Origin: an uncultured Pelagibacteraceae bacterium | GTDB lineage: Bacteria; Pseudomonadota; Alphaproteobacteria; Pelagibacterales; Pelagibacteraceae | Length of the DNA stretch: 64,000 nucleotides | Reading direction: 5' to 3' | Assembly (NCBI GenBank): GCA_902537845.1 | Contig: CACBDC010000002.1 | Coordinates: 1-64,000, forward strand | Shown: positions 28,883 to 49,853 of the stretch, piece by piece | Layout of the letters: each line of letters begins with the position of its first letter | How positions within the stretch are numbered: position 1 is the first letter of the stretch | Position numbers and translations under genes: made by a program | Notes under the pieces: model-generated | Database searches by the model: none | Seen by the model: the letters and a program-made list of their open reading frames with translations, nothing else | Told to the model about the DNA's origin: nothing

Positions 28883-30616
28883 TTAAGTCCGCAATGGTAG
28901 AGCTGAATTCAAAACTTTATTTCTTATAGTTACTAAATCCATCTTATTTAAAAGATTAGTCACAAAATATATAGTTTCTGGATCAAGTTGATAAGGTTCG
29001 TCCTCACCAATAATTTCAACAATCTTTAAAGCTAAGAAAGCTTTCTGATCTTTTTCGATCAATTGTAATAAATTTTTTGGTACATCAAATTTTTTTGAAA
29101 GTTCAGTATATTTAAAGTTAGCTGGTAAAATAAATCCATCTTTAAGAAGTGCATCGGCTAAAGCTAAATCTTTTGCAGAAATAAAATATTTCTTATTTTT
29201 TGATATTCTTTTAAAAATTTTATCTATATCTTTTTGTACTTTTTTTTTATTTTCGCCTTCAACAAAATACTTCAAAATTTTTGATTGATGTAAAATTTTA
29301 TCATTATATTTTACTTTTCCTAAAAAAATATCTTCCTCAGAAACAATCCGTGTCAGTGATATTTCTTTGTATCTATCCGGTAAGTTTTCAATACCAATTT
29401 CTTCAATTTTATCGCTCAAAAACTTTGAATAAATATTACTTAAATCTGCTTTTTTAAATAAATCTTCCAATAGAAAAAGATACTCTATTTTTAATTCGTT
29501 TGACTCAGATAATAAGTATTTCTGGTAAATAAGTGCTCTTGCATCACTTTCATTTAAAGTTTGATAATTTGACTTCGCATTAACTAAGATATTTAAATTA
29601 AAAGGTATTTGTTTGTAAATTTCAAAAATCTTTTTTTTATCTAGTTGATTATTATTTGCCGCAATTTCTAACTCTTTTAACTTTTCTTTATCTGAAGCAT
29701 CCTCTAATTTAATAAGATTCGCTGCATTTAAATATTTCCATATCTCTGTTTTTGTTTTTTCTGTAGGTTCATACTTAAAATCAGCGATAGTTATGCTGGA
29801 CAGATAAAAATTTAAAAGATTTTTTTCGTTAATTTTGTTTATTGTTTTATCTGAAACTCCTAAAAGAAAATTTATCTTATCATCATAAAATTTACTTGAC
29901 TGATTCTGCTCACGTAATAGATCCAGTAGAAGTTGAGCTTCTGCTTTTTTATTGTTAAAGATTAAACAATAAATCTTAAATTTTTCTAAATAAGAATCTT
30001 TTATATTTGCATCAATAAATTTTATTTTTTCACAGCCTTCTTTTATGTTTGCACTTGCTATATTTTTATCTACTAAATATTGAACAGCTCGGCCTTTACC
30101 TTCAAATTCTTCATTCTGTTTCAAAAAACTTTCTATAAGTTCAATCCGATCATTTTGAATTAACCAATTAATCTTTAAATCAACAAATTCTTTCTCGGTC
30201 ATTCCTTGAGGTGGATAGGAAAATGAAAATAAGATTATTTCCAAAATTTCGTTAGAAGATTTTGAAAGTGGAATTTTGCTAAGCCTTTTCATACTTGATC
30301 TTAAATCATCAGCCTTTGTTGAAGACCACATATTCAAATTAAAATCATAATTCGCAGGTTCAAAAATACCATAAACTTTTTGTTGATTTGATTGAATTGA
30401 GGCGCCTTCTTGAATTTGAATTTTTTCCAACGCTTTGATTGTTTGAGATGATTGTGAGTTAGATTGAGATTGCGAAGCTTCATTCTCTTTCTGTAGAGAT
30501 TCATTTGTAACTTCCTTTTTATTTTTCCAAATATCTATTTTCTCTTCACTCAAAATTGGTGAAAAAGAAAAAATAATTAATAAGCCTAATAAATAACTAA
30601 AGCTTTTTAATTTCAT
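28883..30616 (-). CDS. Secreted/periplasmic hypothetical protein, helical-repeat-like (577 aa)
   Basis: 577 residues with a clear signal peptide (MKLKSFSYLLGLLIIFSFSP, likely cleaved just before EEKID). A Gln/Ser/Asn-rich linker runs to about residue 75, followed by a long all-helical region with paired helices reminiscent of TPR/HEAT-type scaffolds. No catalytic motif is visible. An unnamed protein of this kind lies near aroK in many alphaproteobacteria (from memory). It overlaps the upstream 59-aa membrane protein by 20 bases, so the two are probably made together. Function unknown; a cell-envelope scaffold is possible. Confidence 0.8.
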   Translation of the reverse strand: MKLKSFSYLLGLLIIFSFSPILSEEKIDIWKNKKEVTNESLQKENEASQSQSNSQSSQTIKALEKIQIQEGASIQSNQQKVYGIFEPANYDFNLNMWSSTKADDLRSSMKRLSKIPLSKSSNEILEIILFSFSYPPQGMTEKEFVDLKINWLIQNDRIELIESFLKQNEEFEGKGRAVQYLVDKNIASANIKEGCEKIKFIDANIKDSYLEKFKIYCLIFNNKKAEAQLLLDLLREQNQSSKFYDDKINFLLGVSDKTINKINEKNLLNFYLSSITIADFKYEPTEKTKTEIWKYLNAANLIKLEDASDKEKLKELEIAANNNQLDKKKIFEIYKQIPFNLNILVNAKSNYQTLNESDARALIYQKYLLSESNELKIEYLFLLEDLFKKADLSNIYSKFLSDKIEEIGIENLPDRYKEISLTRIVSEEDIFLGKVKYNDKILHQSKILKYFVEGENKKKVQKDIDKIFKRISKNKKYFISAKDLALADALLKDGFILPANFKYTELSKKFDVPKNLLQLIEKDQKAFLALKIVEIIGEDEPYQLDPETIYFVTNLLNKMDLVTIRNKVLNSALPLRT

Positions 30617-41076: not shown

Positions 41077-42450
41077 ATGGAAATTTATAAAAAACAAACT
41101 TTAGCTGAAACATTCTCCGTTTATTTTGATCGTAGAATGATAAAAATATTATTACTTGGTGCAATAAGCGGTTTTCCGTGGGTTATAATTGGAAGCAGTC
41201 TAAGCCTTTGGTTAAAAGAAGACGGTTTAAGTAGAAGTACAATTGGATGGGCTGGATTAATATTTGCTGTATATGCTTTTAATTATCTGTGGGCTCCAAT
41301 TGTAGATAGAATTAAAATTCCTTGGTTAACAAAAAAATTAGGTCATAGACGCGGATGGATAGTAACCATGCAAACTATAATACTTTTAAGTTTAGTTTGC
41401 TGGAGTTTAGTAAACCCGACTGCTAATTTGACACTAGTTATAAGTATTGGTCTTATAATTGCAATTGCTTCCGCTACTCAAGACATTACAGTTGATGCTT
41501 TAAGGATTGAACAAATCGGAGAGACTGAGGGTAAGGCAATGCAAGCTGGTGCTGCTATGGCAGTGGTGGGTTGGTGGACTGGATATAAATTAGGTGGGAT
41601 GGTCGCGCTGAATACTGCTGAATTTTTACAAAATTCTGGTTTTGAAAACTACTGGCAATTAACCTTTTTAGTTTTGGGGATTTTTATTATTATTTGCAAT
41701 ATTGGATTAATGTTCATCAATGAACCCCAACCGACGGATAGGACTGAAATCCAAAGACAAAATGATAAGATAATTCAAGATAAAATAGGTAAATCGAATT
41801 TCATAACAAAAATAATAGCTTGGTTAACTGGGACCGTTATTGGCCCAGTGGTAAGTTTTTTTAAAAAAAATGGTTTCAATGTTGCGATTGCAATATTAGG
41901 TTTTGTTTTTCTTTTTAAAATTGGTGAGGCTTTCCTCGGTAGAATGTCTGTAATTTTTTATAAGGAAATAGGCTTTACAAAGTCTGACATCGCTCTCTAT
42001 TCGAAAGGTCTAGGTTGGATTACCACTGTAATTTTTACTCTACTAGGTGGACTTTTCGCAATCAGGTCTGGCGTTATAAAAGCCATGTTTTTATCAGGAA
42101 TATTAATGGCTGCTACAAACTTGTTATTTTCATTATTAGCTTGGTCAGGAAAATCTGAATGGTTATTTGCTATTGCTGTTATATTTGACGATATGGCTGC
42201 TGCATTTGCTACAGTTGCTTTCGTTGCATTCATTTCAATGTTAGTAGACAGAACTTATACTGCTACACAGTATGCTTTACTTGCGTCAATTGGAACTGCA
42301 GGAAGAACTACCTTGGCTTCGTCCTCAGGAGCTCTAGTTGATTGGCTCAATGGTGATTGGGGAATATTCTTTATCATCACTGCAGTGATGGTAATTCCAT
42401 CTTTGATATTTCTATATTTGATAAAAGATAAGCTAAATTTAAATGATTAA
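41077..42450 (+). CDS. AmpG-like MFS permease (muropeptide transporter family)
   Basis: I start it at ATG 41077, not the track's TTG 41062 inside trkH, giving 457 residues and about 12 membrane segments. The AmpG-family signature is visible: YAFNYLWAPIVDRIKIPWL, ASATQDITVDALRIEQIG (family motif TQDIxxD) and TATQYALLASIGTAGRTTLASSSG. AmpG members import anhydromuropeptides for wall recycling. The next gene, an NlpC/P60 peptidase, overlaps by 8 bases, which supports a recycling role. Other solutes remain possible. Confidence 0.87.
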   Translation: MEIYKKQTLAETFSVYFDRRMIKILLLGAISGFPWVIIGSSLSLWLKEDGLSRSTIGWAGLIFAVYAFNYLWAPIVDRIKIPWLTKKLGHRRGWIVTMQTIILLSLVCWSLVNPTANLTLVISIGLIIAIASATQDITVDALRIEQIGETEGKAMQAGAAMAVVGWWTGYKLGGMVALNTAEFLQNSGFENYWQLTFLVLGIFIIICNIGLMFINEPQPTDRTEIQRQNDKIIQDKIGKSNFITKIIAWLTGTVIGPVVSFFKKNGFNVAIAILGFVFLFKIGEAFLGRMSVIFYKEIGFTKSDIALYSKGLGWITTVIFTLLGGLFAIRSGVIKAMFLSGILMAATNLLFSLLAWSGKSEWLFAIAVIFDDMAAAFATVAFVAFISMLVDRTYTATQYALLASIGTAGRTTLASSSGALVDWLNGDWGIFFIITAVMVIPSLIFLYLIKDKLNLND

Positions 42451-43183
42451 ATATTTTACTAATAATTTTAGCATTATAAACCTTTATAAAAGCGCTTCAA
42501 CAAAATCTGAAATAGTTACGCAAATGATTTACGGAGATAGTTTTTCAGTTTTAAAAAAAACAAGAAAGTGGCTCAAAATTAAGATAAAAGAAGACAATTA
42601 CAAAGGATATATACAAAATAAAAATTTTCGTAATTATTTAATCCCTTCTCATAAAATAAGTGTTTTGAAAGCAAATGTTTATAATTCCCCAAATTTTAAA
42701 AAAAAAAGATATGAGTTATCATTTGGTTCAAAAATTAAAGTTACAAGAAAAAAAGGTATTTTTTTAAAATTTGATAGAGGTTGGATAAAAAACAGTGACA
42801 CTAAGCATGTGTCATTTAAAGAAAAAAATCTTTTTAAAAAAATTACTATATTTAGGAATGTAAAATATAAGTGGGGAGGAAAATCTTATAAAGGGATTGA
42901 TTGCTCCGGGTTGATACAAATATTTTTTAATTTTAATAATAAATTTTGCCCAAGAGATGCAAAAGATCAGGTAAAATATTTTAAAAAAAATATTCAATTA
43001 AAAAATATTAAAAAAAACGATATTATTTTTTGGAAGGGGCATGTTGCATTAGCTTTATCAAAACAAAAATTAATACATGCTTATGGACCAATGAGGAAAA
43101 CTGTAATTATGAATATAAGTCAAACTATAAAAAAAATAAGTCAAACTGCAAAACTTAAAGTAATTGGAATTAAAAGAGTTTAA
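42443..43183 (+). CDS. NlpC/P60 family peptidase with SH3 domains
   Basis: 246 residues. Two bacterial SH3-like domains (about 10-65 and 70-125) precede the NlpC/P60 papain-like domain. Catalytic Cys154 is in KGIDCSGLIQIFF, His200 in WKGHVALAL and the third residue His212 in LIHAYGP. There is no signal peptide or lipobox, so it should act in the cytosol, like YkfC-type enzymes that trim L-Ala-gamma-D-Glu units from imported wall peptides. Overlaps the AmpG-like gene by 8 bases. Confidence 0.9.
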   Translation: MIKYFTNNFSIINLYKSASTKSEIVTQMIYGDSFSVLKKTRKWLKIKIKEDNYKGYIQNKNFRNYLIPSHKISVLKANVYNSPNFKKKRYELSFGSKIKVTRKKGIFLKFDRGWIKNSDTKHVSFKEKNLFKKITIFRNVKYKWGGKSYKGIDCSGLIQIFFNFNNKFCPRDAKDQVKYFKKNIQLKNIKKNDIIFWKGHVALALSKQKLIHAYGPMRKTVIMNISQTIKKISQTAKLKVIGIKRV

Positions 43184-43221
43184 TGGAGCAAGGGCAGTTT
43201 CAGTCTCCCTCCACTACCCTT
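43184..43221. other. Possible H-type pseudoknot in convergent intergenic region
   Basis: Right after the NlpC/P60 stop, TGGAG (43184-43188) can pair with CTCCA (43209-43213) and AAGGG (43190-43194) with CCCTT (43217-43221). The two helices interlock as an H-type pseudoknot, and the complement folds the same way. This is a local G+C-rich patch in A+T-rich DNA. No T-run follows, so it is not a standard intrinsic terminator. It could be a 3'-end stabilising structure or an RNA element; the remaining 67 bases to the SGNH gene show nothing clear. Confidence 0.35.
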
Positions 43222-43288
43222 AAAAATATAATATTCTATCTCGTGAAAACTTATTAGTCTCTTTTCAGTTGTATGTGGATAATAGATT

Positions 43289-44416
43289 TTATTTTGAATA
43301 ACTAAAATACGCTTTTTCCAATCTTTTTAAACACTTATTCGAAGGATGGGAGGCATCAAAAAATTCGTGTTTGGCACAATTCATTTTGTTAGGATTAAAA
43401 GATCCAACAACATCAATTTGATTCGTTCTTGAAAATTCATGTACTACAGTCTCTACAATTTCAATAGCTTTAAAAATTGGTTCATTTTTTAATTTGAATA
43501 CATCTGGATGATAAGGCGTTAAAAGAAAAATAATCTCACTATTTTTTTCAAAATATTTTTTATATTTTAACAGCAAATTAAGAACGTCCTCATCTAAAAG
43601 TTTATCCAAAGAAATTTTATAATTTATAGTGTTTAGATCGATTTCTACATTTTTTGAATTCTTATCTAGCTCTCTTTTTTTCTTACTTCCATCAAATAAA
43701 ATTACATTAGTTTTCTCTAAATTAACCCCATCTAAATTTGTTGTTATATAATTTTCGTTTATATCTTTTTTAAGATAAATTTTTAAAGAGGTTTTAAAAT
43801 ATTCATAGCTAAATAAATTTTTAATTGATTTTGAAAAAAATTGATCTTGGGTTTTATTTTTTTCAATTTTTTTTGTCTCAAATTTGATATTTTCAATAAA
43901 TTCGTAATAACTCTCAGAGTTTTTAACCCACCTATTGTCTTTGTTAAAATTTAGTGTGAAAGGATGAATAGATAAAAATATTTTCTTTTTTTTTGTATCG
44001 GATGGGGAAAAGTTATTTGATAGTGCAAAATAATCCTCAAAAGTTGCGCCAGGCATACCTAAATTAAGTAATGAATTACAATATTTATCTAATACGCGTG
44101 GGTTTTGAACAACGCTTATTGAAACAACCGAACTAGCGCCAAAAACAATACAATCTTTATCTTTATATCTTTTAGAGAAGAGGTTGTACAAATCTCTATC
44201 GTTCCAGTTTTTATCTTTATAAACTAAAAATCCTCTTTCTAAAATTAGCTTATTTAATTTTTCTTCAAGATTTAATTCATTTTTATTTAAGTTTTTTTTA
44301 GATGTATATATTTTCTCTGGATCAATAGTAAAATTAAATGCCGCTATAAAAACCACCAAAATAGTTAACAGTGCAATCGTCTTAAAAAAATAACTTTTAT
44401 AAAATTTATTTCTCAT
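43289..44416 (-). CDS. Membrane-anchored SGNH/AlgX-like protein
   Basis: 375 residues. One N-terminal membrane anchor (about 11-28) precedes a predicted periplasmic domain. The pattern fits SGNH-fold acetyl esterases/transferases: a GASS block near 93-96 (IVFGASSVVSIS), conserved GMPGATFEDYFAL, and a C-terminal DxxH (D354, H357 in FFDASHPSN) that would complete the Ser-His-Asp triad. It lies 2 bases after an MBOAT gene, as AlgX/AlgJ/PatB-type partners do. Likely works in O-acylation of an exported glycan; the family call is inferred from motif spacing and context. Confidence 0.72.
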   Translation of the reverse strand: MRNKFYKSYFFKTIALLTILVVFIAAFNFTIDPEKIYTSKKNLNKNELNLEEKLNKLILERGFLVYKDKNWNDRDLYNLFSKRYKDKDCIVFGASSVVSISVVQNPRVLDKYCNSLLNLGMPGATFEDYFALSNNFSPSDTKKKKIFLSIHPFTLNFNKDNRWVKNSESYYEFIENIKFETKKIEKNKTQDQFFSKSIKNLFSYEYFKTSLKIYLKKDINENYITTNLDGVNLEKTNVILFDGSKKKRELDKNSKNVEIDLNTINYKISLDKLLDEDVLNLLLKYKKYFEKNSEIIFLLTPYHPDVFKLKNEPIFKAIEIVETVVHEFSRTNQIDVVGSFNPNKMNCAKHEFFDASHPSNKCLKRLEKAYFSYSK

Positions 44417-44418
44417 AT

Positions 44419-45954
44419 TTAAAATTGTAAGTAAATAAATTCACTTTCTCGGTTTAAAAATAATATACTTGTAATTAATATTAAAACTGTAAATAGCGAC
44501 CAGAGTACATTTGGCTTCCATTTTATATTGATAAAACTTTTTCTTTTTCTTAATAAATTTTCATCATTAAACTCATTTTTAATATTTTTAAATAAAAACT
44601 CTTGTGTATTAGGAAATAAAAAAATTATCATAAAACTAATGATTAGCCAAAATATTCCATGATAAGGCTGAGATGCAAATAATCCAACTTGAAATAAATC
44701 AATCAAATCTAATTTTCCAAATCCGAAAATCGCTTTAAAATATTCTAGGGAACTTTCTATAGAATTAGATCGAAAAACTATTAAGGCTAATACCACCGAT
44801 AAAAAAGTTATCAATTGAGCAAAAAAATCTTTAAAATTATTTTTCTGTTCTTTTAAATGATTATTTTTAAAATTTTTCCATAAATTAAATATTATTATAT
44901 AAAAACCATTTATGACTCCAAATAATATAAAATTCCAGCCTGCTCCATGCCATAATCCAATTAACGCAAATGAAATGAGCGTTGGAATCATTAAACTAAG
45001 TAAGAAATCTTTTGCGAATCCGAAATTTTTTATTCCAGATAATCTTGAAAAATACATGGAAAGAGGAAAATATAAATAATTTCTAACTAAATTGCTAAGA
45101 GTTATGTGCCAACAGATCCAAAACTCACTAATATTTTTTGCCTTGAAAGGTGAAAAGAAATTAATTGGTAAAATAAAACCAAACATTAACGCAATGCCTA
45201 AAGCCATGTCGGTATAACCGGAGAAATCAAAATAAATTTGGAATGCATAACCAATTGCGCCCACCCAAGCATCAAAAAAGTTTAAAGGTATTCCAGATTC
45301 AACTGAACTAAAAAATGGATTTACATAAAGTGCAAGGTTATCTGCTAAAACAACTTTTTTAAATAAACCAACAGCAAAAGTTGTGATACCAACATTTAAA
45401 TGATTTATGTCAAAATTTTTCGAAATTTGATTTTTAATTTGTGGCATGAGAAAACCATGTCTTACTATTGGACCAGTAACAATTTGAGGAAAAAAACAAA
45501 CATACAAAAAATATCTCCTTAAGTTTTGATCTGAAACTTTCCCTAGGTAACAATCAACAAGATATGTAATTTGTTGAAACGTAAAATATGATATTCCTAA
45601 TGGTAAAATTATAGTTTCAATTATATAATTCTTATTAAAAAATACATTGATATTTTCTATAAAAAAATTTGTATATTTATAATATCCTAAAATAAGAAGG
45701 TTGATAAAAATTCCAAAAAAAAGTTTTAATTTATTATTATCTTTAATTAATAAATTTCCAATGAAAAAATTTAAGATAATAGAAAAAATTAGTAAAAATA
45801 AATATTTTATATTCCACCACGAATAAAATAATAGTGAAATGATTATTAAAAAATCAACTCTGAAAGTATTGCGAGTAAAATTTATTAAAAAATAAAAGCT
45901 TATTAAAGCGGTTGGTAAAAAAATAAAAATAAATATATAGCTGTTAAATAGCAT
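44419..45954 (-). CDS. MBOAT family O-acyltransferase (AlgI/DltB-like)
   Basis: I start at ATG 45954 (MLFNSYIFIFIFLPTALISF), as is usual for AlgI-type proteins; the track's upstream start adds 19 residues. About 511 residues with around 10-12 membrane segments. Hallmarks are LPLGISYFTFQQITYLVDCY, FPQIVTGPIVRH, YFDFSGYTDMALGIALMFGF and the catalytic His in LIGLWHGAGWNFILFG. It should pass an acyl group across the membrane to an acceptor handled by the SGNH partner. Divergent from the FkbH-like gene. Confidence 0.93.
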   Translation of the reverse strand: MLFNSYIFIFIFLPTALISFYFLINFTRNTFRVDFLIIISLLFYSWWNIKYLFLLIFSIILNFFIGNLLIKDNNKLKLFFGIFINLLILGYYKYTNFFIENINVFFNKNYIIETIILPLGISYFTFQQITYLVDCYLGKVSDQNLRRYFLYVCFFPQIVTGPIVRHGFLMPQIKNQISKNFDINHLNVGITTFAVGLFKKVVLADNLALYVNPFFSSVESGIPLNFFDAWVGAIGYAFQIYFDFSGYTDMALGIALMFGFILPINFFSPFKAKNISEFWICWHITLSNLVRNYLYFPLSMYFSRLSGIKNFGFAKDFLLSLMIPTLISFALIGLWHGAGWNFILFGVINGFYIIIFNLWKNFKNNHLKEQKNNFKDFFAQLITFLSVVLALIVFRSNSIESSLEYFKAIFGFGKLDLIDLFQVGLFASQPYHGIFWLIISFMIIFLFPNTQEFLFKNIKNEFNDENLLRKRKSFINIKWKPNVLWSLFTVLILITSILFLNRESEFIYLQF

Positions 45955-46036
45955 TATTATGAAAATATTATTACTAATCGTATAAATAAGGTATAAATTC
46001 TTAAATATCAAAATTTAAAATAGATAACTCAAAAAA

Positions 46037-47677
46037 ATGCAAAAAAAGAAATTCCTAATTTTGAGAAATTACACTATCGAACCCGTATTCAATGAAATTG
46101 AGGATAAATTTCAAAATAAAGGTATAAAGGCGAAATTTGATTATTCAAGCTACGACTCAGCACTACCTGAACTCCTAAGGATGACTTCAAAAAAATTAAA
46201 AGAATATGATGGAATTTTAATTTTTTTATCATTCGAAAGCTTTGTATCAAATATTCATAAAAAAAAAATTAAGGACTCATTTTTACTTTTTAAAAACTTA
46301 ATAGAAGAAATTTCAAAGCAGCTTAGAGTAAATAAAATAGAAAATATTAATTGGTTTATTTTATCTCATCAAAAATTCATTACCCATAAAATCAACAATA
46401 ACAAGGTACAAAGTCAAATCTTAAAGCTCAAAAAAAAGATTCTTAATTTTTATGATTTTAGAAGTGAAATTCTTAAATTTCACTCTACGAAAAATATATT
46501 CGATCTAAGATATTGGAAAAGCTCAATGTTTCCTTTTAGCGGTTTAGGTTTAAGAATTGCTTCAAATATTATTTTTATAAAATTACAATTAATTTTAAGA
46601 AGTAAATATAAATTATTAATCCTTGATGCTGATAATACTTTGTGGAATGGGATAATTGATGAGGCGGGATACAAAAATATAAACTTCAAGAATAATTTAT
46701 TAAAAATAAATTATTTAATTTTTCAAAAAAAAATCAAGGAATTAAAAAAAAAGGGTATCATTCTTTGTTTATGCACCAAAAATGACATTGTCTCTATCAG
46801 AAATGTTTTCAATTATCATAAAAGGAAAATGAAACTTAAATTAAATGATTTTCTGATAATAAAAGCAAATTGGGATGATAAATATAAAAATATTTTAGAA
46901 ATTCATAAAAAATTAAACCTTTCTCCAGAAAATAGTTTGTTCATTGATGACTCAAATTTTGAAATTGAAAGTATTAATTCAATGATTCCTACAATTGATA
47001 CACAAAATATTCTTGAATTTGAAAATTATTTTAAAAATATAGATAAAATATTATTACCAGAAAATATTAAATTCACTAAGGAAGACGCGCTAAGAGAAAA
47101 ACTTTATGAAGATGAATTTAAAAGATCAACAGTAAAAGAAAAACATAAAAATTTTAACAAATATATAAAAAGCCTAAACATTGTTCTCGAAATCAAAAAA
47201 AATTCAATAAAAAATCTTACAAGGCTTGCACAGCTTTCGCAAAGAACAAATCAATTTAATTCTAGTGCAATTAGATATGATGAAAAAAACTTAAGAAAGC
47301 TTCTTAAAAATAAAAGCAATTCAATTTATCAATGCTCCGCTAAAGATAAATTTGGTAATTACGGAATTATTGGCTTAATAATTGCAGAAAATAAAAACGA
47401 AAAAATAATAATAAAAAGTTTTGCAATGAGCTGTAGAGCCTTGGGTAGAGAAATTGAAATTAATTTCTTTAATTTTGTCATTAAATCTTTATTAAGAAAT
47501 TTCAATAAGGAAGTGGCAATTTTATTCAAAAAAACCAATAAAAATAAATTAGTAGAGGATTTTCTAAAAAAAAATTGTAAAAGGGGATTGAATTGGAAAA
47601 AAGAAATATTTTTTTATCCAAAAATATCAGATTCTAATAAGAGAGTTAAATTGATTAAAATAAATAATGAAAAATAA
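46037..47677 (+). CDS. FkbH-like protein (HAD-IIIC phosphatase with acyltransferase-like C-terminus)
   Basis: 546 residues in the FkbH architecture. The N-terminal region (about 1-185) resembles the SGNH-like part; the HAD-IIIC domain has nucleophile D197 in LLILDADNTLWNGIIDE and SLFIDDSNFEIESI; the C-terminal GNAT-like part includes NQFNSSAIRYDE and FAMSCRALGREIEINFF. Characterised FkbH proteins load a glyceryl group from 1,3-bisphosphoglycerate onto an acyl carrier protein. An ACP gene overlaps the 3' end by 11 bases, which fits. Very A-rich coding. Confidence 0.9.
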   Translation: MQKKKFLILRNYTIEPVFNEIEDKFQNKGIKAKFDYSSYDSALPELLRMTSKKLKEYDGILIFLSFESFVSNIHKKKIKDSFLLFKNLIEEISKQLRVNKIENINWFILSHQKFITHKINNNKVQSQILKLKKKILNFYDFRSEILKFHSTKNIFDLRYWKSSMFPFSGLGLRIASNIIFIKLQLILRSKYKLLILDADNTLWNGIIDEAGYKNINFKNNLLKINYLIFQKKIKELKKKGIILCLCTKNDIVSIRNVFNYHKRKMKLKLNDFLIIKANWDDKYKNILEIHKKLNLSPENSLFIDDSNFEIESINSMIPTIDTQNILEFENYFKNIDKILLPENIKFTKEDALREKLYEDEFKRSTVKEKHKNFNKYIKSLNIVLEIKKNSIKNLTRLAQLSQRTNQFNSSAIRYDEKNLRKLLKNKSNSIYQCSAKDKFGNYGIIGLIIAENKNEKIIIKSFAMSCRALGREIEINFFNFVIKSLLRNFNKEVAILFKKTNKNKLVEDFLKKNCKRGLNWKKEIFFYPKISDSNKRVKLIKINNEK

Positions 47678-47912
47678 AGAGGAAATTTTAAAAAAAATAA
47701 GTCCAATATTTATAAAAATTTTCAAAAATAAAAAGTTGAGGATTAAATTCAATTCATCCGCTAAAAATATTAAAAATTGGGACTCACTCGCTCATATAAA
47801 TATAATTTTAAATATTGAGCGAATGTTTAAAATAAAATTTAAAGTATCAGAGATAGCTGAACTAAAAAATGTAGGAGAAATGGTAGATCTTATTTTAAAG
47901 AAAAAAAAATAA
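47667..47912 (+). CDS. Acyl carrier protein
   Basis: 81 residues. The phosphopantetheine site is Ser40 in NWDSLAHINIILNIERMF, matching the DSL motif, followed by the ACP helix II-III pattern (KFKVSEIAELKNVGEMVDLIL). Unusually Lys-rich for an ACP, as expected with such A-rich DNA. It overlaps the FkbH-like gene by 11 bases, so it is most likely the dedicated carrier for that enzyme, not the fatty-acid ACP. Confidence 0.9.
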   Translation: MKNKEEILKKISPIFIKIFKNKKLRIKFNSSAKNIKNWDSLAHINIILNIERMFKIKFKVSEIAELKNVGEMVDLILKKKK

Positions 47913-47923
47913 CTTAGACCTTT

Positions 47924-48727
47924 ATGATTAATTCTTTAATTAAAAAAGATGCTAGATTAAAATTTTTTTATTCAAATGTATCTAATTCATTTAACCATCA
48001 ACAAAAAAAATTATATAAAAAAATTGATAAATTTTTAAATATTTATTGCAAATATCATAAATTAAGCCACAAGAAAATTTTAAATTTATATTTTAATTTT
48101 TTAAAATCGTACTCTAAAGATTGTGAAAATTTTGTAAAAACAAAAAAATACCCTCATAGATTAAATAAAAGATTAAAGAAAGTAGATAGAATTTCGTATG
48201 AACTTGCATTGATAATTTCCTGTTTAGTAACTAATCACAGATTTGGCATTATGGAACAAATTTCTAAAATAAAAATATCGAAGAATTGTTTATTTGTGGG
48301 AGTGGGAACAGGGCTCGAAATTTTTATTTTAAAAGAAAAACTAAAATATTATTTAGCTTATGACCCTGGATCATCAAATTTTATTTTCAATATAATAAAA
48401 AAGAAAAATTTCAGAAAAAAAAATTATAACTTTTCAATTAAAAACTTAGATACAATTTTTGCAATCGAATTTTTAGAACATTTGTCAAAGCCTTTCGAGT
48501 TTCTAAAAAATATATTCTTTAGTATGAAAAAAGGCTCAAAGTTAATCTGTACTACAGCTAAAAATATTCCCCAATTTGACCACCTGTTTAATTTTCATTC
48601 TCAAAAATCATTCGAGAACAGAGTTAAAAGGATAGGATTTAAAATATTATTTAAAAAAATATTATTACATAGGGATGATTTTCAAAAAATAGGTTCTGAT
48701 AACGTTTTTTATATTTTGAAAAAATAA
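47924..48727 (+). CDS. Class I SAM-dependent methyltransferase
   Basis: 267 residues. A Lys-rich N-terminal helical region (to about 120) is followed by a Rossmann core with the SAM motif CLFVGVGTGLEIF, the acidic strand YLAYDPGSS, and the post-II block TIFAIEFLEHLSKPFEFL. The target is unknown; position after FkbH and ACP suggests O-methylation of the ACP-bound or transferred group, or of a sugar. Last gene before tRNA-Ser, 11 bases after the ACP gene. Confidence 0.82.
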   Translation: MINSLIKKDARLKFFYSNVSNSFNHQQKKLYKKIDKFLNIYCKYHKLSHKKILNLYFNFLKSYSKDCENFVKTKKYPHRLNKRLKKVDRISYELALIISCLVTNHRFGIMEQISKIKISKNCLFVGVGTGLEIFILKEKLKYYLAYDPGSSNFIFNIIKKKNFRKKNYNFSIKNLDTIFAIEFLEHLSKPFEFLKNIFFSMKKGSKLICTTAKNIPQFDHLFNFHSQKSFENRVKRIGFKILFKKILLHRDDFQKIGSDNVFYILKK

Positions 48728-48741
48728 ATTTATTTAAACAC

Positions 48742-48831
48742 TGGCGGAGAGAGAGGGATTCGAACCCTCGAAACGGTTTCCCGTTTACACGCTTTCCAAG
48801 CGTGCGCCTTCAACCACTCGGCCACCTCTCC
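48742..48831 (-). tRNA. tRNA-Ser (GGA), CCA encoded
   Basis: 90-nt cloverleaf with the long class II variable arm. Acceptor GGAGAGG pairs with TCTCTCC. The D arm keeps GTGG, the anticodon loop TTGGAAA gives GGA, the variable arm is AAACGGGAAACCGTTT, the T arm GAGGG-TTCGAAT-CCCTC, then G73 and CCA. All standard tertiary bases are present. Its first G is also the last base of the TAG stop of the upstream glycosyltransferase gene. Confidence 0.97.
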
Positions 48832-49853
48832 TATTTGAAATCATCGATAAGTTTTATAAATTTTTCAATGTATTCTTTGTAAGTTGGAAGTTTGTTTTTT
48901 TTCATGTCTTTTTGAATCTTTTTATAGTTTTTCTTAATACTGTTTAAAGTTCCTAAAAAACTCAAAAAATTTCTTTTTGTAACAAATATTCCCTTTTTGT
49001 CTCCAATTACATGTTTTATTTCGTTAAAAATAACAACGGGTCTCCTTCTGGCTAAAGCTTCTAATAATACCATTGGATGACCCTCGGTAAATGAAGGTAA
49101 AATAAAGATATTATGATCATCATAGTATTTGATTAATTTAGTTTTATTACTTTGTGTGGGAAGAACCTTTATATTACTTTGATTTATCTTATGTGAGCTT
49201 CCTTGTTCAGCCCCAATGATTGTTAAGGAAATATCCCTTTTATTTTTGATTAATTCAGACAGCGCATAAATTCCCTTCTCAACTCTTAATCTTCCTACGT
49301 ACAATAATTTGAAATTTTTAATTTCTATATTCTTGGGTTGCCTTAGCCAAACAGAGTCTAATTGAGAAGGATTAATAATTTTTCCTTTTTTTCCTTTAAG
49401 AATGTAATCTCTGCAACTAATTAAGTTTGAAACAGCAGCAACAAGACTAAACATAAAATGATAAATTAAAGGACCAATTCTACCAAGGATGGCTCTATAT
49501 TCGCCGTAACCATCGCTTCTTAAGTATACTATGGGTTTTCGACCAAGAATTTTTATAAACAAAGCTATTAGAAATGTATAGGGGGATATTGAGATTATCA
49601 AAAATTTGGTATCTGTGTTTTTTGAAGCAATTTTTACTTCTGATAAATATGAAAAAATATTACTGAATATTTTTATTCTTTTTATCTTTATCTCATGAGA
49701 TCTCTTTTTAAATGATTTCCTGCCAAAAAGATTGACTTCAAATTTTTTATTTAACCCTTCTGGAGTAGATTTTAAATCTAAATTATCACAATAATATTTA
49801 TCATCGTCTATTGAAATACTCTCATTAGAAAAAATAAATAGTTTTTTTTTCAT
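48831..49853 (-). CDS. Glycosyltransferase family 4-like protein
   Basis: 340 residues in GT-B layout. The C-terminal half has [33 protein letters not shown] and the donor-binding [27 protein letters not shown]. The N-terminal half starts [13 protein letters not shown]. Sugar and acceptor are unknown. The ATG shares a base with the lepA stop, so it rides on the lepA transcript. The stop TAG gives its G to tRNA-Ser. Confidence 0.88.

Follow-up and report, generated by a model that had tools for sequence, protein, structure and literature searches.

A divergent FkbH, acyl carrier protein and MBOAT cassette in a SAR11 genome with features of a Dlt-like transmembrane acylation pathway

Two pathways offer the closest comparison for a membrane-bound O-acyltransferase (MBOAT) with an SGNH partner. 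In the Dlt pathway DltB moves D-alanine from the carrier protein DltC to a tyrosine of DltX, and then to DltD (PMC12148441); in the Pat pathway the MBOAT itself carries the equivalent hexapeptide as a fused part, and the donor is acetyl-CoA with no carrier protein (PMC12148441). FkbH homologues of polyketide synthase (PKS) pathways form glyceryl-acyl carrier protein (glyceryl-ACP) (PMC7489565). Here we analyse a 64,000-nucleotide stretch of an uncultured Pelagibacteraceae (SAR11) genome (assembly GCA_902537845.1, contig CACBDC010000002.1, positions 1 to 64,000; the window), in which a five-gene cassette at 43289-48727 joins a Pat-type fused relay with what is predicted to be a Dlt-type carrier-protein donor loaded by FkbH. 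We consider it probable that this is an ACP-dependent, Dlt-like transmembrane acylation cassette in which FkbH fills the role of DltA, a methyltransferase modifies the acyl-ACP and an MBOAT/SGNH pair exports the acyl group, the whole being carried as exchangeable cargo of a variable chromosomal slot.

The cassette is a divergent pair of transcription units, the minus-strand one encoding a DltB-like MBOAT and, 2 bp further on, a 375-aa SGNH-type partner, and the plus-strand one encoding FkbH, a dedicated ACP and a methyltransferase. A preliminary description of the locus had claimed this layout, and the positions, families and motifs of all five open reading frames (ORFs; those of at least 60 aa were listed for the window) bear it out. 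The GC content of the cassette is 22.9%, compared with 29.0% for the window, and its features are as follows:

43289-44416, minus strand: SGNH/GDSL-type periplasmic acyltransferase partner with a predicted DltD/PatB-like role; 375 aa, N-terminal transmembrane helix, candidate residues Ser95, Asp354 and His357
44419-45954, minus strand: DltB-like MBOAT; ~511 aa from an internal ATG, PF03062 and TIGR04091, His302 and His355 (530-aa numbering)
44422-44439, minus strand: hexapeptide FIYLQF at the MBOAT C-terminus, an F-x-Y-x-x-F acyl-relay motif as in DltX/PatA
45955-46036: divergent intergenic region between the MBOAT and FkbH genes
46037-47677, plus strand: predicted FkbH-family acyl-loading enzyme; 546 aa, TIGR01686
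47667-47912, plus strand: dedicated ACP; 81 aa, PF00550, overlapping the end of fkbH
47924-48727, plus strand: class I S-adenosylmethionine-dependent methyltransferase of an FkbH-associated subfamily; 267 aa, PF13489

The MBOAT matches PF03062 (E=9e-20), the DltB profile TIGR04091 (173.2 bits, below the 375-bit equivalog cut-off) and the DltB structures 6bug/8jem (E ~1e-54), making it a homologue of DltB and not an equivalog. The ORF as listed (44419-46011, minus strand) opens with a TTG at 46011; because its relatives begin at an internal ATG in the alignment, this codon, at 45954, is probably the true start, giving a protein of 511 aa and leaving ~80 bp between the divergent genes. The protein terminates in EFIYLQF, H302 and H355 are invariant in the alignment, and the F-x-Y-x-x-F C-terminus is common to most FkbH-linked MBOATs. 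Its SGNH-type partner has one transmembrane segment, at the N-terminus, and gave no match in Pfam and NCBIfam scans. The earlier label of SGNH-like is nonetheless upheld by Ser95 and Asp354-x-x-His357, which are invariant across the partners of FkbH-linked MBOATs, and by a low-confidence AlphaFold2 model (pLDDT 54.6), for which GDSL/SGNH esterases make up most of the best PDB matches and PatB (7trr) is a weak one.

FkbH scores 252.3 bits against TIGR01686 (cut-off 146.65), and its profile matches PDB entry 3slr. The HAD motif DxDxT reads DADNT at residues 197-201 and is invariant, as are the DD motif and Cys466, which lies within a C-terminal SCR motif. The ACP scores 21.5 bits against PF00550, just above the cut-off, and its phosphopantetheine-bearing Ser40, in a WDSL motif, aligns with those of the other cassette ACPs. 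By analogy with its family, FkbH would load glyceryl from 1,3-bisphosphoglycerate onto this ACP. FkbH homologues are also present in archaeal genomes (L089, L077 and L136), and one of these, a Micrarchaeota metagenome-assembled genome (MAG; L089), has FkbH, ACP and MBOAT together, with contig contamination possible; no FkbH relatives were found in the viral contigs scanned. A third carrier protein of the window genome (L172; G000 contig C7, ~36 kb) adjoins a transketolase-like pair and a metallo-hydrolase-like protein, all named by eye.

The cassette resembles the Dlt pathway in its dedicated carrier protein (the 81-aa ACP with WDSL), DltB-like MBOAT and candidate SGNH partner, and relatives with cargo in the same slot encode an AMP ligase, ACP, MBOAT and SGNH protein. 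It differs in that FkbH stands in for DltA, with no DltA ligase among its genes; in that the MBOAT bears the relay motif at its own C-terminus, so that a separate DltX would not be needed; and in having a methyltransferase and a Gram-negative host, in which no teichoic acid is expected. Lacking DltA, and with an MBOAT under the DltB cut-off, it falls outside Dlt. PatA/PatB and AlgI-type O-acetylation systems share with it an MBOAT with a C-terminal F-x-Y-x-x-F and conserved His, and a predicted periplasmic SGNH protein. However, those systems are reported to use acyl-CoA without a carrier (PMC12148441), whereas the cassette has an ACP, its predicted donor, and a loader, and the ACP places it outside the acyl-CoA-dependent Pat class. 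The glyceryl- and methoxymalonyl-ACP sub-clusters (FkbG-K; Mad11-15, PMC7489565) likewise contain FkbH, a dedicated ACP and a methyltransferase, but the cassette is without FkbI/FkbK-type dehydrogenases or PKS (no dehydrogenase was found between nlpC/P60 and lepA), and its end enzyme is the MBOAT/SGNH pair.

The cassette is widespread and not unique to the window. From a survey of FkbH loci in named genomes, one genome per species, we took the best 80 and searched them with profiles built for this analysis. An MBOAT lies near FkbH in 35 of these, in most cases as a neighbour, and all 35 have an ACP; the 35 loci come from a search of all ORFs, and only 19 were recovered with overlap-pruned ORFs, which, in GC-rich loci, missed ACPs and FkbH. 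They span Bacteroidota, Bacillota, Pseudomonadota, Nitrospinota, Verrucomicrobiota, Elusimicrobiota, Omnitrophota, Nitrospirota and one archaeal MAG. FkbH and MBOAT domains no more than 2.2 kb apart occur in at least six of 399 Pseudomonadota genomes, compared with ~0.25 expected from random placement in 4-Mb genomes, a figure below the true background because both families probably favour polysaccharide clusters. That the ACP is constant and the genes closely adjacent speaks for something beyond co-clustering. Loci with the complete set of five gene kinds include L192, L193, L112 and L093 of Kiloniella spongiae MEBiC09566, and in the last of these the genes make up one strand-uniform run in the order MBOAT-SGNH-MT-ACP-FkbH. 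The pairing of the FkbH and MBOAT halves, on which the preliminary description depended, thus recurs well beyond the window.

Several observations nevertheless weigh against a joint function. The halves of the cassette do not share a strand, and the MBOAT/SGNH systems outside Dlt evidently draw on acyl-CoA, as stated in PMC12148441. The FkbH of the window is highly divergent, and its tree, which has long branches, places it with SAR11 FkbHs that have no MBOAT and not with that of the Nitrospinaceae locus L115; it gives no support to joint inheritance of FkbH and MBOAT, an idea we dropped. The pairing in the window may therefore be a separate assembly. This makes inherited function a weaker argument, but the recurrence of the pairing would then say more. 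In addition, genes for a MaoC-like dehydratase and a short-chain dehydrogenase/reductase (SDR) lie beside the loader and MBOAT at L115, L129, L112 and L058, and the acyl group transferred probably differs between cassettes.

These strand and tree data, together with the PatA-type motif fused to the MBOAT, would suit an arrangement of two unrelated neighbours, in which MBOAT/SGNH is an acetyl-CoA-dependent O-acetyltransferase of PatA/PatB or AlgI type and FkbH, ACP and methyltransferase feed some other enzyme. Such an enzyme is seen elsewhere, since FkbH and ACP are paired with an AAC3-like (Antibiotic_NAT) acyltransferase at SAR11-order loci (L016, 7852-11533, also L128; L017, 2-2202), the first of which carries a methyltransferase of the window's subfamily (44% identity). 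The shared genes make these loci similar to the cassette, but their acyltransferase is soluble and not an MBOAT, suggesting cytoplasmic N- or O-acylation, and they possibly represent a cytoplasmic glyceroylation route. The earlier view that the ACP serves the MBOAT is supported by the presence of an MBOAT near FkbH and ACP at 35 of the 80 loci, and does not extend to all homologous clusters, in some of which the ACP serves another enzyme (AAC3-like in the SAR11-order loci; PKS or nonribosomal peptide synthetase, NRPS). The genome of the window itself (901 kb, 75% complete) has a single MBOAT, no soluble AAC3-type acyltransferase was found in it, and of PKS it offers just two ketosynthase-family matches, one covering only a profile fragment, with no modular PKS in view, in line with the earlier statement that no PKS is present to use the ACP. 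Service of another enzyme in this genome is weakened by these results, although the missing quarter of the genome limits any argument from absent alternative users. The MBOAT tree also speaks against unrelated neighbours: the window protein clusters with those of L018 and L115 (support 97/96), and both of these have their own ACP nearby, with a ligase in L018 and with FkbH in L115. Given this, the ACP at all 35 FkbH-MBOAT loci and the behaviour of the five genes as one variable unit (see below), we regard unrelated neighbours as quite improbable.

The role of the methyltransferase was the weakest part of the route first proposed. The protein matches PF13489, has a methyltransferase fold and carries the subfamily motif N-x-P-x-x-D-H-x-[YF]-x-F. 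Among 150 related genomes the methyltransferase (METHYLTRANSFERASE) has a single close relative, in G110, at 44% identity and 93 bp from FkbH. We searched 399 Pseudomonadota genomes with a profile seeded by six FkbH-linked proteins, a choice that brings some ascertainment although the genomes searched were not selected by FkbH linkage, and obtained 20 strong matches (E<1e-20), spread over 16 genomes. Every one of the 16 encodes FkbH, which is present in 57 of the 399 (hypergeometric ~4e-15, or ~3e-14 when the window genome is left out), and FkbH is no more than 4 kb away from 12 of the 20 matches. Weak matches occurred in 17 genomes, 16 of them without FkbH. The subfamily adjoins FkbH in other phyla as well, and also at loci where no MBOAT was seen (L016 and L109), a distribution that speaks for the FkbH product, the acyl-ACP, as its substrate. 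Its confinement to FkbH-bearing genomes supports a place in the route, and the linkage suggests that the methyltransferase modifies the ACP-bound unit.

An alternative is that the donor is a different C3 unit (unmethylated glyceryl, lactyl or hydroxypropionyl), the methyltransferase acting on the acceptor sugar or on the ester after transfer. Many FkbH-ACP-MBOAT loci have the MaoC and SDR genes, whose products could reshape glyceryl-ACP, and one such locus, L068, has a glyoxalase-family gene. To our knowledge FkbH chemistry is described from PKS and NRPS systems only, which counts on the same side. The window, however, has neither MaoC nor SDR, and the tracking of FkbH by the methyltransferase even where no MBOAT was seen points to acyl-ACP as the target, so that we hold a different donor to be possible but doubtful.

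The route that we favour would thus start with FkbH taking the C3 acyl group of 1,3-bisphosphoglycerate, an intermediate of sugar breakdown, and loading it as glyceryl on the dedicated ACP. The methyltransferase would tailor the bound unit, most simply to O-methylglyceryl. On the cytoplasmic side the ACP would pass the acyl group to the DltB-like MBOAT, which would hand it to the tyrosine of its own C-terminal FIYLQF, and the SGNH protein would accept it on its catalytic serine and transfer it to an exported surface polymer, by analogy with Dlt and Pat probably a glycan. The glyceryl donor and the transfer to an exported glycan are argued by analogy, and methylation on the ACP from gene linkage. 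This is essentially the model of the preliminary description, from FkbH through ACP and methyltransferase to MBOAT/SGNH, and with the co-occurrence and methyltransferase linkage now supporting it, it stands as the best explanation.

The cassette occupies a slot between a conserved nlpC/P60 gene and tRNA-Ser(GGA), the latter abutting a GT4 gene, after which comes lepA:

42443-43183, plus strand: NlpC/P60 gene marking the slot's conserved left edge (context, outside the cassette)
48742-48831, minus strand: tRNA-Ser(GGA), right edge of the insertion slot
48831-49853, minus strand: GT4 glycosyltransferase gene at the right slot edge, adjoining lepA (context)

The extra DNA in the window sits between a conserved GTTGTATGTGGATA block and the 3' end of the tRNA, which is present in 23 of the 23 slot loci scanned. 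Across relatives, nlpC/P60 and GT4 are separated by anything from ~0.2-0.3 kb to >8 kb, and in G002, G031, G004 and G044 the slot holds the tRNA gene and ~100 bp alone. Because it is empty in close relatives, the five genes form one accessory unit; no integrase was found among the window's slot genes. The same slot in G087 (L018) holds an acetyl-CoA-synthetase-like AMP ligase, an ACP, an MBOAT 51% identical to that of the window and an SGNH protein (~40%), and in G020 and G026 (L020 and L021) a ligase, an ACP, an MBOAT and an AT3-SGNH fusion. In these three relatives of the same genus an acyl-AMP ligase thus takes the place of FkbH alongside ACP and MBOAT, which makes the loading enzyme the variable part. 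We do not claim an in-place exchange of FkbH and ligase beside one MBOAT-SGNH pair, since the L018 set is on the other side of tRNA-Ser.

The slot as a whole (window 43184-48831; L150-L169) is hypervariable, ranging from empty to >8 kb. In G062 (L158, 1577-5094) it encodes a ketoacyl-ACP synthase III (KAS III), an ACP, a deacetylase-like protein (DUF2334) and two further genes, suggesting a third type of donor. Proteins of 577-605 aa with signal-like N-termini recur in its cargo (L150, L153, L154, L162 and L168), with no Pfam family in the two scanned (L150 and L153); the window has a 577-aa ORF without a Pfam family at 28883-30616. Rfam matches to a CRISPR repeat and a plastid UTR scored under the gathering thresholds and were dismissed. 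The SAR11 O-chain cluster proper has been reported beside the rRNA genes (PMC11898729), making the cassette slot a different variable site.

Slot contents bear on the acceptor, which could instead be peptidoglycan or a lipid. Other bacteria use MBOAT/SGNH pairs to O-acylate their peptidoglycan (PMC12148441), and nlpC/P60 and ampG adjoin the slot; both genes, however, border it whatever the cargo and are kept where it is empty, so that neither they nor GT4 provide functional evidence, and we dropped nlpC/P60 and ampG as functional partners. A polysaccharide-deacetylase-like protein among other slot cargo and the glycosyltransferase bordering the slot also point away from peptidoglycan or lipid, an acceptor we consider unlikely.

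No description of surface acylation by FkbH, ACP and MBOAT was found in the open-access literature, most subscription literature lying outside the search. Whether the cassettes of many phyla form a single pathway class, in which FkbH diverts 1,3-bisphosphoglycerate to an ACP, interchangeable enzymes (methyltransferase or MaoC/SDR) tailor the unit, and an ACP-dependent MBOAT with SGNH places glycerate-derived esters on surface polymers, seems to us evenly balanced. If the favoured route is correct, the Dlt logic of carrier-protein donor, MBOAT and SGNH protein would extend beyond D-alanine and teichoic acids, with a swappable loading module, here FkbH, which is familiar chiefly from polyketide and peptide antibiotics. 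It would also be a candidate route to glycerate-derived surface decorations, which in at least one case lack known genes: a Tannerella glycan carries a glyceroyl group whose responsible gene is unassigned (PMC6120980), and the FkbH-ACP-AAC3 loci are of interest for this gene. Cultured carriers such as Kiloniella spongiae open the pathway to direct testing. In SAR11, exchangeable cassette cargo would constitute surface variation that could bear on recognition by phages and grazers.

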